DNA from: Gemmatimonadota bacterium
GTDB taxonomy: Bacteria; Gemmatimonadota; Gemmatimonadetes; Longimicrobiales; Gaopeijiaceae
DNA length: 64,000 bases
Direction: 5' to 3'
Assembly: GCA_016209885.1 (NCBI GenBank)
Contig: JACQVF010000105.1
Coordinates: forward strand, 1 to 64,000
The translations under genes were made by a program, and so were the position numbers. The notes under the pieces are model-generated. The model did not search any database. It had not been told where the DNA came from and worked only from the letters and a program-made list of their open reading frames with translations. Within the stretch, counting starts at the first letter, position 1. Each line of letters starts with the position of its first letter. Shown here one piece after another: positions 410-11,131 of this stretch.

Positions 410-1720
410 CTAACGTGCTACCTCTCCAGCGTGCGTCGGCCCGTCGCGCCATACAACCTTTCCGCGGACGAGCGTGAGCTTTGTCCGTCCGGTGACACGC
501 CATCCGGTGAAGGGCGAGTTCCGGCTCTTGGATCGGAATCGGGTGGGGTCCACGATCCACTCCTCGTCCGGGTCAAACACGGTGACGTCGGCCACGGAGC
601 CGGGCCGCAGCGTGCCACCGGGGAGTGAGAACGCGCGGGCAGGTCCGCAGCTCATGCGCTCGATCAGGGGCGCCAGGCCGATGATCCCGGGTCTGACCAG
701 TTCCGTGAGCAGGAGTGCCAGCGCGGTTTCCAGCCCCACGATGCCGAAGGGCGCGTCGTCGAACGCCTGCTCTTTCTCGTCGTAGTGGTGCGGGGCGTGG
801 TCCGTGGCCACGCAGTCGATGGTACCGTCGGCCAGCCCTTCCCGGAGAGCCTGCACGTCCGCCTGCGTCCGCAGCGGCGGCTTCATCTTCGCGTCCGTGC
901 GGTAGCCGTCCACGGCGTCCTCCGTGAGGATCACGTGGTGGGGCGTGGCCTCGGCGGTGACGCGGAGCCCCCGCGCCTTCGCCAGCCGGATGGCTTCCAC
1001 GCCCAGCGCAGTGGAGACATGCTGGATGTGGATCTGCCCGCCGGTGAGCTCGGCCAGAAGCAAGTCGCGGACGACCATCACGTTCTCGGCTGCGGCCGGG
1101 ATACCGCGCAGCCCCAGGCGCGCCGCGACGATCCCCTCGTTCATCACGCCGCCGCGGGAGAGGGCGAGGTCCTCGGGGTGGTCCGCGACGGGGATGCCGA
1201 ACGTCTGCGCATACTCCAGGGCGATGCGCATGAGCCCCGAGTCCATGACCGGGTTCCCGTCGTCCGTGATGGCAACGGCGCCAGCCTGCACGAGTTCGCC
1301 CACGGGCGTGAGCCGCTCGCCTTTCTGGCCCACGGAGATGGCGCCCACCGGGTAGACCCGGGCGCCGCCCGCACGGGCACCCTCCGCCAGCACGAATCCG
1401 ACTCCCGCCGGATCGTCGATGGGCGGATCGGTATTCGGCATGGCGCAGATCGCCGTGAAGCCGCCGGCCGCCGCCGCGCGCGCGCCCGTGGCGATCGTCT
1501 CCCTGTGCTCGCCCCCGGGCTCCCGCAGGTGCACGTGTACGTCGATAAGGCCCGGGCTGACCGTGAGCCCACCCACGTCCTGGACCTCTGCCCCCTCGGG
1601 CGGCGAGAGCCCGGCGCCCAGGGCTGCTACGACGCCATCGGCCAGCAGCACATCGAGGACGGCGTCCAGCTCGCGGGACGGATCGATCACCCGGCCGCCC
1701 TGCAGCAGGATCGGCCTCAT
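410..1720 (-). CDS. pyrC: Dihydroorotase
   Basis: Catalyses reversible cyclisation of carbamoyl aspartate to dihydroorotate, the third step of de novo pyrimidine synthesis. The 436-residue product is a class I amidohydrolase. The zinc motif [10 protein letters not shown] lies at residues 60-69 (H62, H64), with PHHV and a late TDHAPHH motif carrying further metal and catalytic residues. The reading frame stays open far upstream, but the true start is the ATG at 1718-1720, which overlaps the pyrB stop by 4 bp. It is last in a pyrR-pyrB-pyrC operon, so it is probably translated by coupling. Confidence 0.96.
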
Positions 1721-2688
1721 GCCTCGTCCGCCCGCTTCGCGGCCTCCGCCTGCTCCGGCTGCCCTCCCGCCAGGAGATAGAGCACCGCCATCCGCACCGC
1801 CACCCCGTTCGTCACCTGCTGAAGGACCACCGAGTGGGGCCCATCCACCACATCGCTGTCGATTTCGACCCCGCGGTTCACCGGCCCGGGATGGAGGATC
1901 AGGAGCTCTTTGTCGAGCTCGCAGAGCCGCGCGCTGGTCACCCCGAACACGCGGTTGTACTCCCGAAGGCTCGGCACGTACCCGGTCTGCATGCGTTCGA
2001 GCTGGAGCCGCAGCACGTTGAGCACATCGGCCCACTCCATGGACTCCTCGATGTGCTTGAAAACGGTGACGCCCAGGCTCTCGATCCCCAGGGGTAGCAG
2101 GGTCTTCGGCCCACAAACGGCCACATTCGCCCCCAGCTTGAGCAGCCCCCAGATGTTCGAGCGGGCGACGCGCGAATGCAGGATGTCGCCCACGATGCAG
2201 ACGTTGAGCCCCTCGATCCGCCCCCGGTGGTCGCGGATCGTCAGGAGATCCAGGAGCGCCTGCGTCGGGTGCTCGTGCGCGCCGTCGCCCGCGTTGATGA
2301 CGTTCGAGCGGATCCGCTCGGCCAGGAACTGGGCCGCACCCGACGCCCAGTGCCGGATCACCACCATGTCGATCCGCATGGCCTCCAGGTTGCGCGCCGT
2401 GTCCACGAGCGTCTCGCCCTTGACTACGCTGGAGGCTGACGTCGCGATGTTCACCGTGTCGGCGGAGAGGCGCTTCTCGGCGAACTCGAAGGAGATGCGC
2501 GTCCGCGTGGACGGCTCGAAGAAGAGGTTGACGATCGTCTTGCCGCGGAGCACCGGCACCTTCTTGATTGGGCGCTCGCTGATCTCTTTGAATGGCTCGG
2601 CCGTGTCCAGGATGGCGCGGATCTGTGCGTCGGTCAGCCGCTCGAGCCCGACCAGGTCCTTCCCCAGGGCCAACGCCGCCCGGGTCAC
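1717..2688 (-). CDS. pyrB: Aspartate carbamoyltransferase catalytic subunit
   Basis: Condenses carbamoyl phosphate with aspartate, the committed step of UMP synthesis. The 323-residue protein has the carbamoyl-phosphate loop [13 protein letters not shown] (residues 57-68), the HPTQALLDL motif and a C-terminal aspartate domain ending in [10 protein letters not shown]. It overlaps pyrC and pyrR by 4 bp each. No pyrI regulatory subunit is adjacent, so control is more likely through pyrR than through allosteric PyrI. That last point is inference. Confidence 0.97.
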
Positions 2689-3245
2689 GCCGCCTCCCTG
2701 GGGACCGTGACGATATCCACGCCCAGCCGGTCGTCCAGCTCGGGGACCAGGACCTCCACGCTCTGGTCCGGCATGACCTCCACCTGCCGACCCACGATAT
2801 CCGGCTGGATCGGCAGCTCGCGCCCGCCCCGGTCCACGAGCACGCAGAGGTAGATCCGACCGGGGCGCCCGAAGTCCATGAGCTCATTGAGAGCCGCCCG
2901 CACGGTGCGGCCCGTGTAGAGCACGTCGTCCACGATGACCACCGCCTTGTCGTCGATGCCGCCCGGCGGCAGCTTGGTGGCGCCCACCACGGGACGCGGC
3001 CCGATGGTGCGGAGATCATCCCGATAGAGCGTGATGTCGAGGTAACCGCTGGGTACCCGCACGCCCTCCGCCTTCTCGATCTCGCGCCCGATCATCTCGG
3101 CAAGCTGGGTGCCGCGGCGCTCGACCCCCACCAGCACCAGGTAGTCCGTGCCGGCGTTCAGCTCGACGATCTCCCGGGCCATCCGCGCCACCGTGCGCAG
3201 GACGGCCCGCTCGTCCATGATGGGTATGCGGTCTGAATCGAGCAT
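2685..3245 (-). CDS. pyrR: Bifunctional PyrR regulator / uracil phosphoribosyltransferase
   Basis: In other bacteria PyrR senses UMP, binds pyr mRNA and controls attenuation or translation; it also has UPRTase activity. The 186-residue protein carries the PRPP-binding motif [13 protein letters not shown], near residues 100-113. It is first in the pyrR-pyrB-pyrC operon and starts at the ATG at 3243-3245. Upstream, after only about 15 bp, lies a 318-bp inverted-repeat element (3261-3578). I could not recognise a PyrR-binding loop or attenuator in the leader, so the mode of control here is open. Confidence 0.95.
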
Positions 3246-5488: not shown

Positions 5489-6229
5489 TCAGTGCGCCGT
5501 GACCGCGGCGACCTCGGCCACCGCGGCGACTCCGCCGACCGCGGCGACCGCGGCGACCGCGGCGACCGCCGGCACCCGGTCCAGCCGACGAAACAGCGCC
5601 GTCACGCGGCCCAGCAGCACGAAGTCCGCGGCATCGTCCACGACCTGGGGGTGGTCTGCCGGGTGCAGGGTGTCCAGCACGATCCGGCCCTCGCGCCGGT
5701 AGAACCGTCCGACCACCGCGTCGCCGGTCACCCGGGCCGCGACCACGTCACCATCCTGGAGCTCCTTCATGAACGCGGGCTCTACCAGGATCAGGTCGCC
5801 GTCGCAGAAGCCCAGCGCCGTGAGCCCCTCGTCGCGCACACGCAGGAAAAAGGAGCCTGCGGAGCCCGCCAGCCGCCGGTCCACCGCAACCTTCATCTCC
5901 ACCTGCTCGCTCATCAGCCCGCGATTGCCATCCGGAAGGTCACGGTAGCACGGAACCGAGATGGCGTGGGTGCTGAGCTCCACGCCCAGGATTCGCACGC
6001 CGCGCGAACGCGAGGGATCCCGCTCCAGGTAACCCTTGTCCGCCAGCGACTGGAGATGCTCCGACACCGTCTTCGTGCTCTTGATCCCAAAGCGCTGAGC
6101 GATGTCCCGGATGGATGGCTGGTACGTGTTCGCCCGCAGGAACTCGACCATGTACTCGAGGATCTTCTGCTCGATCTCGGTGAGCGCGAGGGGCGACGTG
6201 GACTCTGTGCGCTGGGGAGCCGGGGTCAT
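5489..6229 (-). CDS. LexA-like repressor with inactive peptidase domain
   Basis: The 246-residue protein has a LexA-type winged helix at residues 15-80 (TEIEQKILEYMVEF, PSIRDIAQRFGI, KTVSEHLQSL) and an S24-like fold at about 90-215 (FFLRVRDEGL, CDGDLILVEP, DVVAARV). Against LexA, the nucleophile Ser is Gly135, the general-base Lys is Gly174, and no Ala-Gly cleavage site is visible around residues 94-104. It should therefore bind DNA but not self-cleave. The last 25 residues are an Ala/Val tail encoded by a 9-bp tandem repeat. I chose the ATG at 6227-6229; a GTG at 6263-6265 is possible but would leave a very short leader behind the predicted promoter. Confidence 0.88.
   Translation of the reverse strand: MTPAPQRTESTSPLALTEIEQKILEYMVEFLRANTYQPSIRDIAQRFGIKSTKTVSEHLQSLADKGYLERDPSRSRGVRILGVELSTHAISVPCYRDLPDGNRGLMSEQVEMKVAVDRRLAGSAGSFFLRVRDEGLTALGFCDGDLILVEPAFMKELQDGDVVAARVTGDAVVGRFYRREGRIVLDTLHPADHPQVVDDAADFVLLGRVTALFRRLDRVPAVAAVAAVAAVGGVAAVAEVAAVTAH
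5500..5576. repeat. Degenerate 9-bp tandem repeat encoding an Ala-Val tail
   Basis: Copies of a unit close to GCGACCGCG run through the 3' end of the LexA-like gene and encode repeated AAV triplets on the minus strand. The repeat length is a multiple of three, so copy-number change would lengthen or shorten the tail without a frameshift. Confidence 0.7.
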
Positions 6230-6282
6230 GTTCTCAAAGATAAAATGTTCCTGCCCGTGCTGCACAGATGCGCGGAAGCGCT

Positions 6283-6312
6283 ATCGTAATGCGGCGCATC
6301 GGCGGGTGTCAA
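6283..6312 (-). promoter_or_regulatory. Predicted sigma70-type promoter of the LexA-like gene
   Basis: On the minus strand there is a perfect -35 TTGACA (6307-6312), an 18-bp spacer and a -10-like TACGAT (6283-6288). It lies in the AT-richer gap between gltX and the LexA-like gene. Just upstream (about 6317-6334) is GTTATCTGTTCGATCAAC, with GTT/AAC dyads that could be an operator. That last idea is speculative. Confidence 0.5.
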
Positions 6313-6339
6313 GAAAGTTGATCGAACAGATAACAAAAT

Positions 6340-7809
6340 CTAGGGTTCTGGCGCGCTCGCACCCGCCGCGAAGCGGTCGCGGAGGTAGCAGACCGCATCG
6401 CGGATGCGGCCGAGCGCACGCTCGCGCCCCATCGCTACGAGCACATCGAAGATCCCTGGGCTCACGGCCTGCCCCGTAAGCGCCACACGCAGCGGATGGA
6501 TGAGCTTCCCCGCCGGAATGCCCAACTCCGCGGCGAACGCACGCAGCCGGTCCTCCAGCGGCGCCGCCTCCCACGGCGCGTCCGCAAGAAGCTCGGTGAG
6601 CCGCTCGAGACGCAGGGCCACCTGGGGGCCATCACGCCAGTGCCTGCCGACGGCCTCCTCTTCGTAGCGGATCACCCCCGCCACGTACGGGCGTACCCGC
6701 TCCGCCAGCTCCTCCAGGTCCCGCGCCCGCCCCTTAAGCAGGTCGATGAGCGCCAGATACCACTCGCGTCGCGCCTGGAGCTCCTCCGCGGAAGCCAGGC
6801 CGCGGGCCGCGAGGCGCGGCGCCACCAAGGGCTCCAGCAGCTGCGCGTCCGCCCGCGCCATGTGCTGTGCGTTCAGCCACTCGAGCTTCTTCAGATCGAA
6901 GACCGAGCTTTTCTTGAGCACCCGGTCGATCGAGAACTTCGTAATGAGCTCCGGCACGTCCATCACCTCCTCGTCCGTGCCCGGTGACCAACCCAGGAGC
7001 GCAAGGAAGTTGACCATCGCCCAGGGCAGGATCCCACGCGCCTCGTGGTCGGCGATGGACGTCGCACCGTGACGCTTCGAGAGCCGCCTGCCATCGGGAC
7101 CGAGGATCATTGGCACGTGCGCGAACTCCGGCAGCGGTCGGCCCAGGGTCCGGTACAGCAGGATCTGCTTCGGCGTGTTCGAGAGGTGGTCGTCCCCACG
7201 GATCACGTGCGTGACCCGCATCCAGCTGTCGTCCGACACCACGGCCAGGTTGTAGGTCGGGGTGCCGTCGCTCCGCAGGACGATGAAGTCATCGATCTCC
7301 GCGTTCACGAACCGCGTGGGCCCATGGACCAGATCGTTCCACTCCGTGACGCCCTCCGGCACCCGGAACCGGATCGCGCACCGCTCGCCCGCCGCCGCGC
7401 GCGCCGCCGACCGCTCCGGCGTCAGCTCCCGCAGACACCTCCGGTCGTAGCCATAGCGCTCCTTGCGCGCCTCCGCCTCCGCTCGTTTCGCCGCCAGCTC
7501 CTCCGGCGTGCAGAAGCAACGGTAGGCGGCCCCGCTCTCCAGGAGCTGACGGGCATCCGCCCGGTGCCGCTCGATCCCGTCCGCCTGGTGGTGCGGCCCC
7601 TCGTCCCAGTCGAGTCCCAGCCAGCGGAGCCCTTCCACGATAGCCCGGGTCATAGCCTCGCTGGACCGCTCTTTGTCCGTATCCTCGATCCGGAGAATGA
7701 AGACGCCCCGCTGCTTGCGGGCCAGAAGCCAGTTGAACAGCGCCGTGCGGGCGCCCCCCACGTGGAGGTAGCCCGTAGGCGACGGGGCGAAACGGACGCG
7801 AATCGCCAT
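6340..7809 (-). CDS. gltX: Glutamyl-tRNA synthetase
   Basis: Class I aminoacyl-tRNA synthetase of 489 residues, the usual length, charging tRNA-Glu in the cytoplasm. The HIGH-type motif is PSPTGYLHVGGA at residues 9-20. The KMSKS loop is the RLSKRHG variant typical of GluRS, and the C-terminal half is the helical anticodon-binding domain. The gene starts at ATG and lies upstream of the LexA-like gene on the same strand. Whether it is the discriminating or non-discriminating form cannot be told here. Confidence 0.97.
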   Translation of the reverse strand: MAIRVRFAPSPTGYLHVGGARTALFNWLLARKQRGVFILRIEDTDKERSSEAMTRAIVEGLRWLGLDWDEGPHHQADGIERHRADARQLLESGAAYRCFCTPEELAAKRAEAEARKERYGYDRRCLRELTPERSAARAAAGERCAIRFRVPEGVTEWNDLVHGPTRFVNAEIDDFIVLRSDGTPTYNLAVVSDDSWMRVTHVIRGDDHLSNTPKQILLYRTLGRPLPEFAHVPMILGPDGRRLSKRHGATSIADHEARGILPWAMVNFLALLGWSPGTDEEVMDVPELITKFSIDRVLKKSSVFDLKKLEWLNAQHMARADAQLLEPLVAPRLAARGLASAEELQARREWYLALIDLLKGRARDLEELAERVRPYVAGVIRYEEEAVGRHWRDGPQVALRLERLTELLADAPWEAAPLEDRLRAFAAELGIPAGKLIHPLRVALTGQAVSPGIFDVLVAMGRERALGRIRDAVCYLRDRFAAGASAPEP

Positions 7810-7990: not shown

Positions 7991-10900
7991 TCAGGTCGGA
8001 GCGGCTGGGCGCGTCGAGGCGATCGTCGGGCCGCTGTTGGGGCTCGGGGCAGCCCGCACCGCCCCTCGTTCGAACACAAGATAGACTGCCGGCGTCGTCG
8101 TGAGCACGAAGGCGCTAGACGACAGCAGCCCGCCGATGAGAGCGTAGCCCAGCGCGTTCCAGAGGTTCGCATCGACCGACTCGCCGAAGAGGACCAGCGG
8201 GAGCAGCCCCAACACCGTGGTGGCGGTGGTCATGAGGATCGGCCGCACGCGCTCGACCGTCCCGCGCACGATCGCCTCGTGGAGCCCCAGTCCCGGCTGC
8301 CGGCGCAGCCGGTTGACGCGGTCCACGAGCAGAATCGCGTTGTTCACGACGATCCCGCCCATCATGACTACGCCGATGTACGCCTCGCGTGTGAAGGTCG
8401 CATCCGCATAGAAGAAGATCAGGAACACGCCGATGAGGGCCATAGGCACCGTGAGGAGCACGCACAGGGGCTGGCGGAGCGACTCGAAGAGCGCGGCATT
8501 GACCATGTAGACGAGCACGAGAGAGAGCGCGAGCACCCCGTAGATTTGCCGGCGCTCCTCGTCCGGCCACCGCCAGCGCTCGGCAGCCTTCACCGTGTAT
8601 CCCGGCGGCACCGCCGTGCTCTTGATGACCGCCTCGTGGACGAGGTCGCCCAGCTTCGCGGGCCCGCGGAATTCGTAGGCCACAGTGCGTTCGTACTGCT
8701 GGTCCTCGCGGCGGATGCGAGAGAGCACCTCCTGGGGCCGGATCGCCACCACGTCGTCCACGCGCACGGCGCTGCCCACGGGCGTGGGAATGAGGAGCTC
8801 CCGGAGTGCCTGAACGTCCATCTCGCGGTAGCCGGCGAGCTTGACCTCGAAGCGCACCTCGTCGTCGCCCAGACGAACCAGGTCCTGGTGCGTCTCGCCG
8901 GACAGGGCGAAGCTCAGCCGGTGCGTCAGGTCCGCCACGGTGAGATGGTGGCGGGCAAGCGCGTCGCGGTCGATCTCGACGACGTACTGGATCGCCCGGT
9001 CCCGCTCGTACCACAAGCCCGTGGCGTTCGTGTCCACATCGCGGATCCTGGAGAAGCGGGCCAGCCGGCGCCCGATGTCCTCGGCGATCGTGCGCACTTC
9101 CTCGTAGTTGTAGCCCAACACCTGAATCGCGTAGCTGGGCGGCGAACTGCCGCCACCGTAGAAGGATGGGCCGTGCCCATACACCTGCACCTCGCTGCCG
9201 CCGAACTGGTGGCTATAGGCGAGCATCTGCTCTTTGATTCCCGCGGGAATGAATGTGCGCTCGATGGAATCCGGGAACGTCACGCGGATGTGCGCGTACG
9301 TGCCCGTGACCCGGGTGACCACCCGCTCGATCTTCGCCATCGAGGCGAGCTTCGCCTCGAAATGGCGCGCAAGCTCGTCCGTGCGCTCGAACTCGGAGCC
9401 GCCAGGGAAGTTGATGCGGATGTCGATGTAGGTCTGCTCGTCCCACCACGCGCGCCAGAGCCTGCCTCGCGTCACGTAGCTGTCGAAGAGGTAGTACGAG
9501 CCGGCGAAGCAGGCAGCCGTGGCCACCATCGTGAGCCACGGGTGCCGGAGTGTGAAGCTCACGACGGCCGAATAGATCCGCGCGTAGACTGGCGGCCCGC
9601 TGGCGCCAGCCGAGGCCGCTGGGGCACCCCACGTCGTCCCCGGGGCGAGAACCCGTGCGGCGAGGGATGGGATGAACGTGAACGCCACGAACAGCGAGGC
9701 GAGCAGCGTGAGACCCACGACCATCGCCAACGGCGCGTAGTAGACGCGCAGCTCGCCCTGCAGGTAGACGAACGGGATGAGGACGATGAGCGTCGTCGCC
9801 GTCGCGGCCAGCACGGGCAGCACCACCTCCACAGCCCCGCTCTGCGCGGCGGCCGCGGGCGCGTCCCCTCGCTGCCAGCGCCGATAGATGTTCTCCAGCA
9901 CCACGATGGAGTTGTCCACGACGAGCCCGAAACCCGTGGCCAGGCCCATGAGCGTGAGCAGGTTCAGGGTGAAGCCGCCGAAGTAGATAAAGTTCAGGGC
10001 GATCAGCACGGAGAACACGATCGTGGCGAACACCAGGCCTGCGAAGCGGAACGACCGGAGGAACGCCAGCAGAACAAGAAAAATGGCGCCCGTGGAGACG
10101 AGTGCACGGCAGCCCAGGTCGGAGAACTGGCGGCGGATGAGCTGGCTCTCGTCGTGGTCGAGAATGAGGTGCATGCCCGCCGGCTTCCGCGCCGACAGCA
10201 CCGCCACCCGTTCCTTCACGCGGTCGGCCACTTCTACTGCGTTCGTGCCAATCTGGCGATGCACGCTGAACGACACAGCGGGCCGGCCGTCGATCCGGTA
10301 GTGTTGGATCGGATCCTCGTACGTGTCCCGCACCGTCGCGACGGCCTCGAGACGGATCAGCCGGCCGCCCGCCGAGGTGAGGACCGTGCGGCGGATATCG
10401 GCAAGGGAGGCGGTGCGGTTGCGGATCGTGATGATGCGCCGGAACGCGCCGCTTCGGACTGCCCCTGCCTCGCGGACGAGGTCGATGTCGCGAAGGCGCT
10501 CGTGGACAAGAGCGGCGCTCAGCCCCAGGGCGTCGATCCGCCGCTCGTCCAGCTCGATCTCGATGACGCGGCCGCGGCCGCCCTGCGCCCGCACCAGCGC
10601 GACGCCCTCCACCTCAGCAAGCTCCGGGCCGATAGCCTCGTCCACGTGGCCGCGCAGCGCCTCGACGGCGTAGGGGCCCGTGAGCGTGTACTCGAGGAAC
10701 GGCCGGTCCTGCTCGCGGAACTCCTCGGGCACGTAGCGCTCGATGGCAAGCAGCCGCGCCCCCGGGGGTAGCTCATCCTCGAGCGCGGCCAGCCGCTCGG
10801 ACAGCTCGAGCCGCACGAAGTCCATGTCCGTGCCGCGAGCGAACTCCGCATCGATGCGCGCGATTCCCGTGCCGTACTGCTGGTACGACTCGGAGCGCAC

Positions 10901-11131
10901 CTTCTCGACACCGCGCACCTGCTGGACCTCGGCCTCCACCGGCGAGGTGAGGAACGCCTCGACGGTCTCCGGCGACGCGCCATACCACTGCCCCCTCACG
11001 GTGAGCTTCGGGAGCTGCGTCTCCGGCAGCATCTCGATAGGGATGTGCCGCCAGGCGGCGACGCCGAGGAGCGCGACGGCCAGGTACGCCATCGCCACAG
11101 CGACGGGCCGGCGGATGCTGAGGCGAATCAT
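7991..11131 (-). CDS. RND efflux transporter permease (second of a pair)
   Basis: Inner-membrane proton-driven pump subunit of 1046 residues, normal for the AcrB/MdtC superfamily. It starts with the first membrane helix (PVAVAMAYLAVALLGVAAW), has large periplasmic loops in both halves, the TM4 motif GLVVDNSIVVLENIYRR and the symmetric GIVVNNAILLVDRV in the second half. TM4 has one Asp followed by Asn rather than the Asp-Asp of AcrB. It overlaps the preceding permease by 4 bp, which suggests co-assembly as in MdtBC. The substrate is unknown. Confidence 0.92.
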   Translation of the reverse strand: MIRLSIRRPVAVAMAYLAVALLGVAAWRHIPIEMLPETQLPKLTVRGQWYGASPETVEAFLTSPVEAEVQQVRGVEKVRSESYQQYGTGIARIDAEFARGTDMDFVRLELSERLAALEDELPPGARLLAIERYVPEEFREQDRPFLEYTLTGPYAVEALRGHVDEAIGPELAEVEGVALVRAQGGRGRVIEIELDERRIDALGLSAALVHERLRDIDLVREAGAVRSGAFRRIITIRNRTASLADIRRTVLTSAGGRLIRLEAVATVRDTYEDPIQHYRIDGRPAVSFSVHRQIGTNAVEVADRVKERVAVLSARKPAGMHLILDHDESQLIRRQFSDLGCRALVSTGAIFLVLLAFLRSFRFAGLVFATIVFSVLIALNFIYFGGFTLNLLTLMGLATGFGLVVDNSIVVLENIYRRWQRGDAPAAAAQSGAVEVVLPVLAATATTLIVLIPFVYLQGELRVYYAPLAMVVGLTLLASLFVAFTFIPSLAARVLAPGTTWGAPAASAGASGPPVYARIYSAVVSFTLRHPWLTMVATAACFAGSYYLFDSYVTRGRLWRAWWDEQTYIDIRINFPGGSEFERTDELARHFEAKLASMAKIERVVTRVTGTYAHIRVTFPDSIERTFIPAGIKEQMLAYSHQFGGSEVQVYGHGPSFYGGGSSPPSYAIQVLGYNYEEVRTIAEDIGRRLARFSRIRDVDTNATGLWYERDRAIQYVVEIDRDALARHHLTVADLTHRLSFALSGETHQDLVRLGDDEVRFEVKLAGYREMDVQALRELLIPTPVGSAVRVDDVVAIRPQEVLSRIRREDQQYERTVAYEFRGPAKLGDLVHEAVIKSTAVPPGYTVKAAERWRWPDEERRQIYGVLALSLVLVYMVNAALFESLRQPLCVLLTVPMALIGVFLIFFYADATFTREAYIGVVMMGGIVVNNAILLVDRVNRLRRQPGLGLHEAIVRGTVERVRPILMTTATTVLGLLPLVLFGESVDANLWNALGYALIGGLLSSSAFVLTTTPAVYLVFERGAVRAAPSPNSGPTIASTRPAAPT

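Follow-up and report, generated by a model that had tools for sequence, protein, structure and literature searches.

Among published LexA proteins, the non-cleavable one that we came across belongs to a single cyanobacterium. In Synechocystis sp. PCC 6803, LexA carries Gly-Gly in place of Ala-Gly and Asp in place of Ser119 (PMC3091678). No products of cleavage were seen under salt stress, and modification is the presumed way in which this LexA is tuned (PMC7567884); according to the available parts of both reports, it represses other genes and is not an SOS repressor (PMC3091678, PMC7567884). A second LexA has been described in Leptospira interrogans, where LexA2, according to the accessible sections of the paper, has its own operator and binds its own promoter (PMC3789691). 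The Bacteroidetes S24 regulators, as far as the available text of their description goes, keep all key residues (PMC8565304). For the phylum Gemmatimonadota, a literature search combining LexA or SOS response with Gemmatimonad- returned no paper treating the LexA of the phylum by its title or the start of its abstract (subscription journals lay mostly outside the scope of the search), and the accessible portion of PMC3919608 mentions the phylum for polymerases only.

Here, we analyze a window of 64,000 nucleotides (the whole stretch of DNA under study) from a member of the Gemmatimonadota whose assembly comprises 4.15 Mb and is 93.6% complete, with 5.21% contamination. The window contains a LexA-type gene, lexA2. 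We think it probable that its product is a non-cleaving LexA paralog, a DNA-binding dimer insensitive to RecA, in a cell in which the SOS response is under an intact LexA (LexA1) on a different operator, and that it probably represses its own promoter.

The window gene and its missing residues

The features of the locus are as follows.

5489..6229, minus strand: lexA2, a LexA-type repressor of 246 amino acids without self-cleavage apparatus (open frame and family profiles)
5999..6187, minus strand: LexA winged-helix DNA-binding domain, residues 15-77, strongly conserved (PF01726 match and conservation)
5603..5917, minus strand: S24/LexA C-terminal domain, residues 105-209, relaxed, dyad missing (PF00717 match and predicted fold)
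5927..5932, minus strand: Asp100-Gly101 codons at the position of the Ala84-Gly85 scissile bond (alignment)
5825..5827, minus strand: Gly135 codon at the position of Ser119, the nucleophile (alignment)
5708..5710, minus strand: Gly174 codon at the position of Lys156, the base (alignment)
6340..7809, minus strand: gltX, the conserved upstream neighbor, same direction as lexA2 (Pfam and synteny)
5501..5569, strand not given: 9-base tandem repeat, 7.7 copies, lengthening the C-terminal tail of the window LexA2
6275..6323, minus strand: lexA2-specific promoter block, TTTC TTGACA, an 18-base spacer and TACGAT; candidate self-regulation site

Farther out, Pfam matches mark dihydroorotase-like, aspartate/ornithine carbamoyltransferase and phosphoribosyltransferase genes on one side (410-3245) and an AcrB-family transporter on the other (7991-11131).

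The window protein is a LexA by descent, matching the TIGR00498 lexA profile at 141.7 bits (cutoff, 110.95), PF01726 at 68.1 bits and PF00717 at 51.1 bits, and an S24 domain of 53 bits in a continuous open frame rules out a chance reading. Its ATG start at 6229 matches the start of the nearest relative (locus L003); a longer GTG start at 6265 is also present. The sequence match to LexA structures spans residues 16-216. A predicted model (mean pLDDT, 75.3; pTM, 0.58; built on an alignment of only 11 sequences) has LexA as its top matches in a structural search, and its C-terminal domain superposes on Pseudomonas LexA with a Z score of 15.2 and an rmsd of 2.5 Å over 122 residues. The full-length rmsd against LexA structures is high (6-11 Å), as expected if the two domains differ in placement. 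The 9-base repeat adds an Ala/Val-rich tail ahead of the C-terminal Thr-Ala-His; the lengthened tail is missing in 10 aligned relatives, and Thr-Ala-His also closes several relatives of family f1, with whose LexA2 proteins the window protein groups.

An earlier note on this DNA had proposed that the LexA fold is intact and that both catalytic residues and the cleavage site are gone. The profile matches and the predicted fold bear out the former. As to the latter, Ser119 and Lys156 of Escherichia coli LexA correspond to Gly135 and Gly174 in every alignment made, so that the Ser-Lys dyad is missing, and the 84-85 scissile bond corresponds to Asp100-Gly101 rather than to Ala-Gly or Cys-Gly. The ungapped motifs read RVRDEGL in the window protein versus RVSGMSM in E. 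coli LexA, and DAVVGRF versus EVTVKRL; Lys156 in the last of these is what we take to be the native residue, the LexA chain used in the alignment being the K156A form. A check of the alignments with E. coli LexA for an alternative Ser or Lys, the result that would have told against the note, placed none at columns 119 and 156. Based on the missing residues, we infer that the window LexA2 cannot self-cleave. Could it still do so using other residues? We found no evidence supporting this idea and give it almost no credence, given that the window protein lacks Ser and Lys at these sites and that most f1 relatives carry Asp/Glu and His/Tyr there. Nor is the loss peculiar to the window gene, as the apparatus is absent in 37 of 37 f1-type orthologs read.

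The note had also suspected a separate, true LexA elsewhere in the genome, and there is one. A PF00717 search of the genome found two places only: the window gene and, on contig 53, a gene for a complete LexA. This LexA1 has Ala-Ala-Gly, Gly-Asp-Ser-Met and Thr-Val-Lys-Lys in place, and its identity to LexA2 is low (34%). Contamination was considered as the origin of either gene and is unlikely: the LexA1 of this genome groups with f1 LexA1 (support, 93) and its LexA2 with f1 LexA2 (support, 99), and the synteny with gltX holds.

LexA2 across the phylum

A search of 395 Gemmatimonadota genomes with the window protein gave a LexA-type match in 381, with two matches in most genomes of families f1, f2, f3, f5 (part) and f9 and mostly one in those of f4, f6, f7, f8, f10 and f11. 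A LexA1 match at E <= 1e-5 was found in 53 of 53 selected genomes; G235 was matched only at its LexA2 place. We read 30 LexA1 loci and 114 LexA2 loci, the latter chosen from the matches rather than comprising all of them and including one genome twice (L004 and L023 are identical). L003 is the same as locus L261 of genome G401, and L261 stands outside the 114. LexA2 forms one clade separate from LexA1 (SH-aLRT, 99; 114 rows) in a quick tree that deserves moderate trust, and gltX lies directly upstream, in the same direction, at 105 of the 114 loci (116 were tested, including L083 and L104, which are not LexA2), one of the nine misses having only 256 bases of upstream DNA. Left out of the LexA2 counts were L083 (genome G276) and L104 (G091), which the tree places outside the LexA2 clade and which are not linked to gltX (L104 with only 518 upstream bases), and L105 (G357), whose C-terminal region is missing. 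At L083 (2989-3621) and L104 (2995-3717), the LexA-type genes have an intact apparatus and fall outside both the LexA1 and the LexA2 clades in the tree.

Ala-Gly, Ser and Lys are kept in 30 of 30 LexA1 proteins. Among the LexA2 loci, 43 have kept the apparatus and 71 have lost it; the f1 loci being mostly best matches to the query, these proportions may not be representative of the phylum. By family, it is intact in 12/12 LexA2 proteins of f3 and 31/53 of f5 and lost in 30/30 of f1, 7/7 of f1-like database contigs, 7/7 of f2 and 5/5 of f9. With the tree built from the alignment without its four trait columns, parsimony requires at least seven changes (128 rows) or, in a reduced set of 91 rows, at least five, and six with the dyad alone scored; these change counts exclude long branches, L091 and L146 among them. 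A single-clade loss, with all lost rows forced together, was rejected (p-AU, 1.9e-26). Related bacteria of the phylum thus appear to have lost self-cutting in lexA2 several times. Intermediates exist: the dyad persists without Ala-Gly in L138 and L145, Ala-Gly is retained beside a changed dyad in L132 and L111, and L085 has kept Ser only.

What became of the C-terminal domain once its catalytic residues were gone? It is possible, if rather unlikely, that it is a sensor in which Cys94 or the former active site controls DNA binding in response to redox state, metal or a small molecule; this is the best of the rival explanations. Of 36 f1-type proteins, 35 carry a Cys at the column of E. coli residue 78, which is Cys94 in the window protein, and in most f1 orthologs the former active site is acidic with His or Tyr: position 119 is Asp in 17, Glu in 12 (29/36 together) and another residue in 7, and position 156 is His in 16, Tyr in 10, Phe in 3 (29/36 together) and another residue in 7. 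However, the window protein, alone among the 36, has Gly at both sites; the same Cys occurs in some f3 proteins with an intact apparatus; and the C-terminal domain is relaxed rather than tightly conserved.

The contrast between the two domains is marked. Mean pairwise identities of the N- and C-terminal domains in LexA2 proteins that have lost the apparatus are 0.84 and 0.44 in f1, 0.80 and 0.42 in f9, and 0.87 and 0.38 in f2, versus 0.72 and 0.62 in LexA1 and 0.78 and 0.63 in f5 LexA2 among the intact proteins. In the closest pair, the window protein and L003, the dN/dS ratio is 0.04 for the N-terminal domain (dN, 0.038; dS, 0.89) and 0.38 for the C-terminal domain (dN, 0.333; dS, 0.88). Is lexA2 then a decaying, functionless gene, a pseudogene in the making? 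A relaxed C-terminal domain and a tail lengthened by a repeat would fit, as would an f5 subgroup in which lexA2 abuts gltX and has lost its own promoter space. Yet the dN/dS of about 0.04 in the DNA-binding domain, the 84% identity of the N-terminal domain across f1, the conserved promoter and the still-open frame make this very improbable for the window gene. Given a conserved DNA-binding domain beside a relaxed C-terminal one in f1, f2 and f9, lexA2 most likely encodes a damage-blind repressor and is not a decaying pseudogene. Of the two roles that the earlier note had offered, a stable repressor or a sensor with another trigger, the former is favored, given how strongly the DNA-binding domain is conserved.

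The f5 lineage that has lost the apparatus may be on another path. Its DNA-binding domain is less conserved (0.65), and in several of its genera lexA2 starts 11-66 bases past gltX, with little space for a promoter of its own; decay is possible there. At L080, L082, L084, L086, L087, L094, L097 and L103, all of f5, the lost LexA2 begins 11-21 bases after gltX, with no promoter room.

Operators, promoters and the proposed role of LexA2

Upstream of lexA1, a motif search found the direct repeat TTCGG-N6-TTCGG at 27 of 27 nonredundant loci. With at least 9 of its 10 letters, the repeat stands before 30 of 30 lexA1 genes (versus 1.2% of shuffles), and with one variable letter before recA in 18 of 19 genomes, this one included (versus 9 of 380 shuffles), recA having been located in 19 of the 20 genomes searched; the shuffles used as controls for lexA1, recA and lexA2 keep base composition only and are thus a mild control. 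The loci concerned are those of contig 53 of this genome, G000 (L001 and L043), L044-L072 and L208-L226. This genome has 16 such sites versus 1 for a reversed control, and they adjoin lexA1 (two sites), an ImuB-like gene (two sites), gyrA, a sigma-70 gene and a DUF5131 gene; some fall inside genes and may be due to chance. The LexA1 repeat occurs in 3 of 114 lexA2 promoters, about the chance rate, and in none of 30 f1 lexA2 promoters or 7 f1-like loci, so that the window gene does not share the operator expected of the SOS master repressor. Based on these sites, with the repeat at lexA1 and recA and absent at f1 lexA2, LexA1 is likely the SOS repressor.

The recognition region of LexA2 (IKSTKTVSEHL, versus SLATVHEHL in LexA1) is common, with small changes, to intact and lost LexA2. 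Could the two proteins nevertheless pair, with LexA2 as the non-cleavable partner in a heterodimer that dampens SOS induction? Two LexA-type proteins are present in one cell, and LexA2 retains the C-terminal strand FVLLGRVTALFRR in both sequence and model. We consider a heterodimer improbable all the same, as the two proteins differ in recognition helices and operators and their identity is low.

Where might LexA2 itself bind? The earlier note had suggested motif discovery upstream of the orthologs, and this yielded a palindrome in intact f5 and, in f1, a promoter block but no defined LexA2 site. The palindrome, near TGTACG-N4-CGTACA, was found in intact f5 lexA2 promoters (log-likelihood ratio, 63 versus 24-27 in shuffles) and is a candidate operator of intact f5 LexA2; GTACG-N4-CGTAC, with no more than one of its 10 letters changed, is present in 8 of 31 of these promoters, versus 1.1% of shuffles. 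As a regulon marker, GTACG-N4-CGTAC was discarded as unspecific genome-wide, its counts in 14 genomes often being no higher than those of the control. A genome-wide search for TGTACG-N4-CGTACA had matches in 9 of 36 genomes, with no clear shared gene except in two g62 genomes, where it precedes the same TolB-like-looking gene (the name being our own reading of the sequence). A motif from f3 was rejected as an operator; it is the promoter -35 element, which is partly true of f1 also.

The f1 lexA2 promoter is very conserved (TTTC TTGACA, 18 bases, TAGGAT AGC), with no clear palindrome in most genomes. Across 58 f1 genomes, a profile of it had one match each in 28 at E <= 8.3e-6, 28 of 28 beside lexA2; two further matches at lexA2 follow (E = 0.017 and 0.020), and the remainder do not rise above chance, with E = 0.0203 for the strongest match elsewhere; in 13 of the 58 genomes there was no match at E <= 1. 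An exact search for CACATTAGGATAGC hit 21 of 96 genomes once each, always at lexA2 (16 at known lexA2 positions and 5 by tblastn). With profile matches beside lexA2 alone, the block belongs to lexA2 alone in these f1 genomes, which suggests either self-regulation or a dedicated strong promoter. Motif, exact and profile searches of the genomes found no targets besides lexA2 itself.

In total, these observations favor a model in which LexA2, a dimeric repressor, would bind DNA through its LexA winged helix and, being unable to cut itself, would not respond to RecA filaments. Intact LexA1 would run the ordinary SOS response on its different operator, and LexA2 would probably repress its own promoter and perhaps a few other genes. 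The level of LexA2 would be held by its own promoter, and either that level or some signal not involving self-cleavage would determine how active the protein is. To generalize, we would put at roughly even the chances that the gltX-linked second LexA repeatedly gave up self-cleavage with its DNA-binding domain under strong selection, leaving a damage-blind repressor that may control little beyond itself.

Comparison with known systems

The combination of an intact LexA1 with a repeatedly decaying paralog and its intermediates makes the order in which such a switch decays testable, and the loss series also lets the control of an uncuttable LexA be tested. TTCGG-N6-TTCGG is a candidate SOS box for the phylum; none was found in the literature searched.

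Canonical LexA, whether of E. coli or the LexA1 of this genome, has its domain order and fold in common with the window LexA2, whereas the scissile bond and the Ser-Lys dyad are missing in LexA2 and the lexA2 promoter lacks the LexA1 repeat. Leptospira LexA2 is likewise the second LexA of its cell; going by the accessible sections of its description, however, it keeps Ser and Lys, has a Cys-Gly bond, is depleted after UV and belongs to a prophage-like region (PMC3789691). IrvR of Streptococcus mutans is also a LexA-like regulator outside the rule of RecA but, according to the section headings of its report, is still self-cleaving (PMC7101444).

The LexA of Synechocystis, as it appears in the available parts of the reports, is a close counterpart. 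Like that protein, the window LexA2 lacks the scissile bond and the nucleophile, and it would presumably also be a repressor; the Asp that Synechocystis LexA has at 119 is the commonest state in f1 LexA2 (17/36). In Synechocystis, however, it is the strain's own LexA that is described, whereas here the protein is a paralog accompanying an intact LexA; both of its dyad positions are changed, and the loss is repeated within one phylum. A non-cleavable LexA is already published for Synechocystis; what is new is its occurrence as a paralog beside a normal LexA and its repeated loss of self-cleavage.
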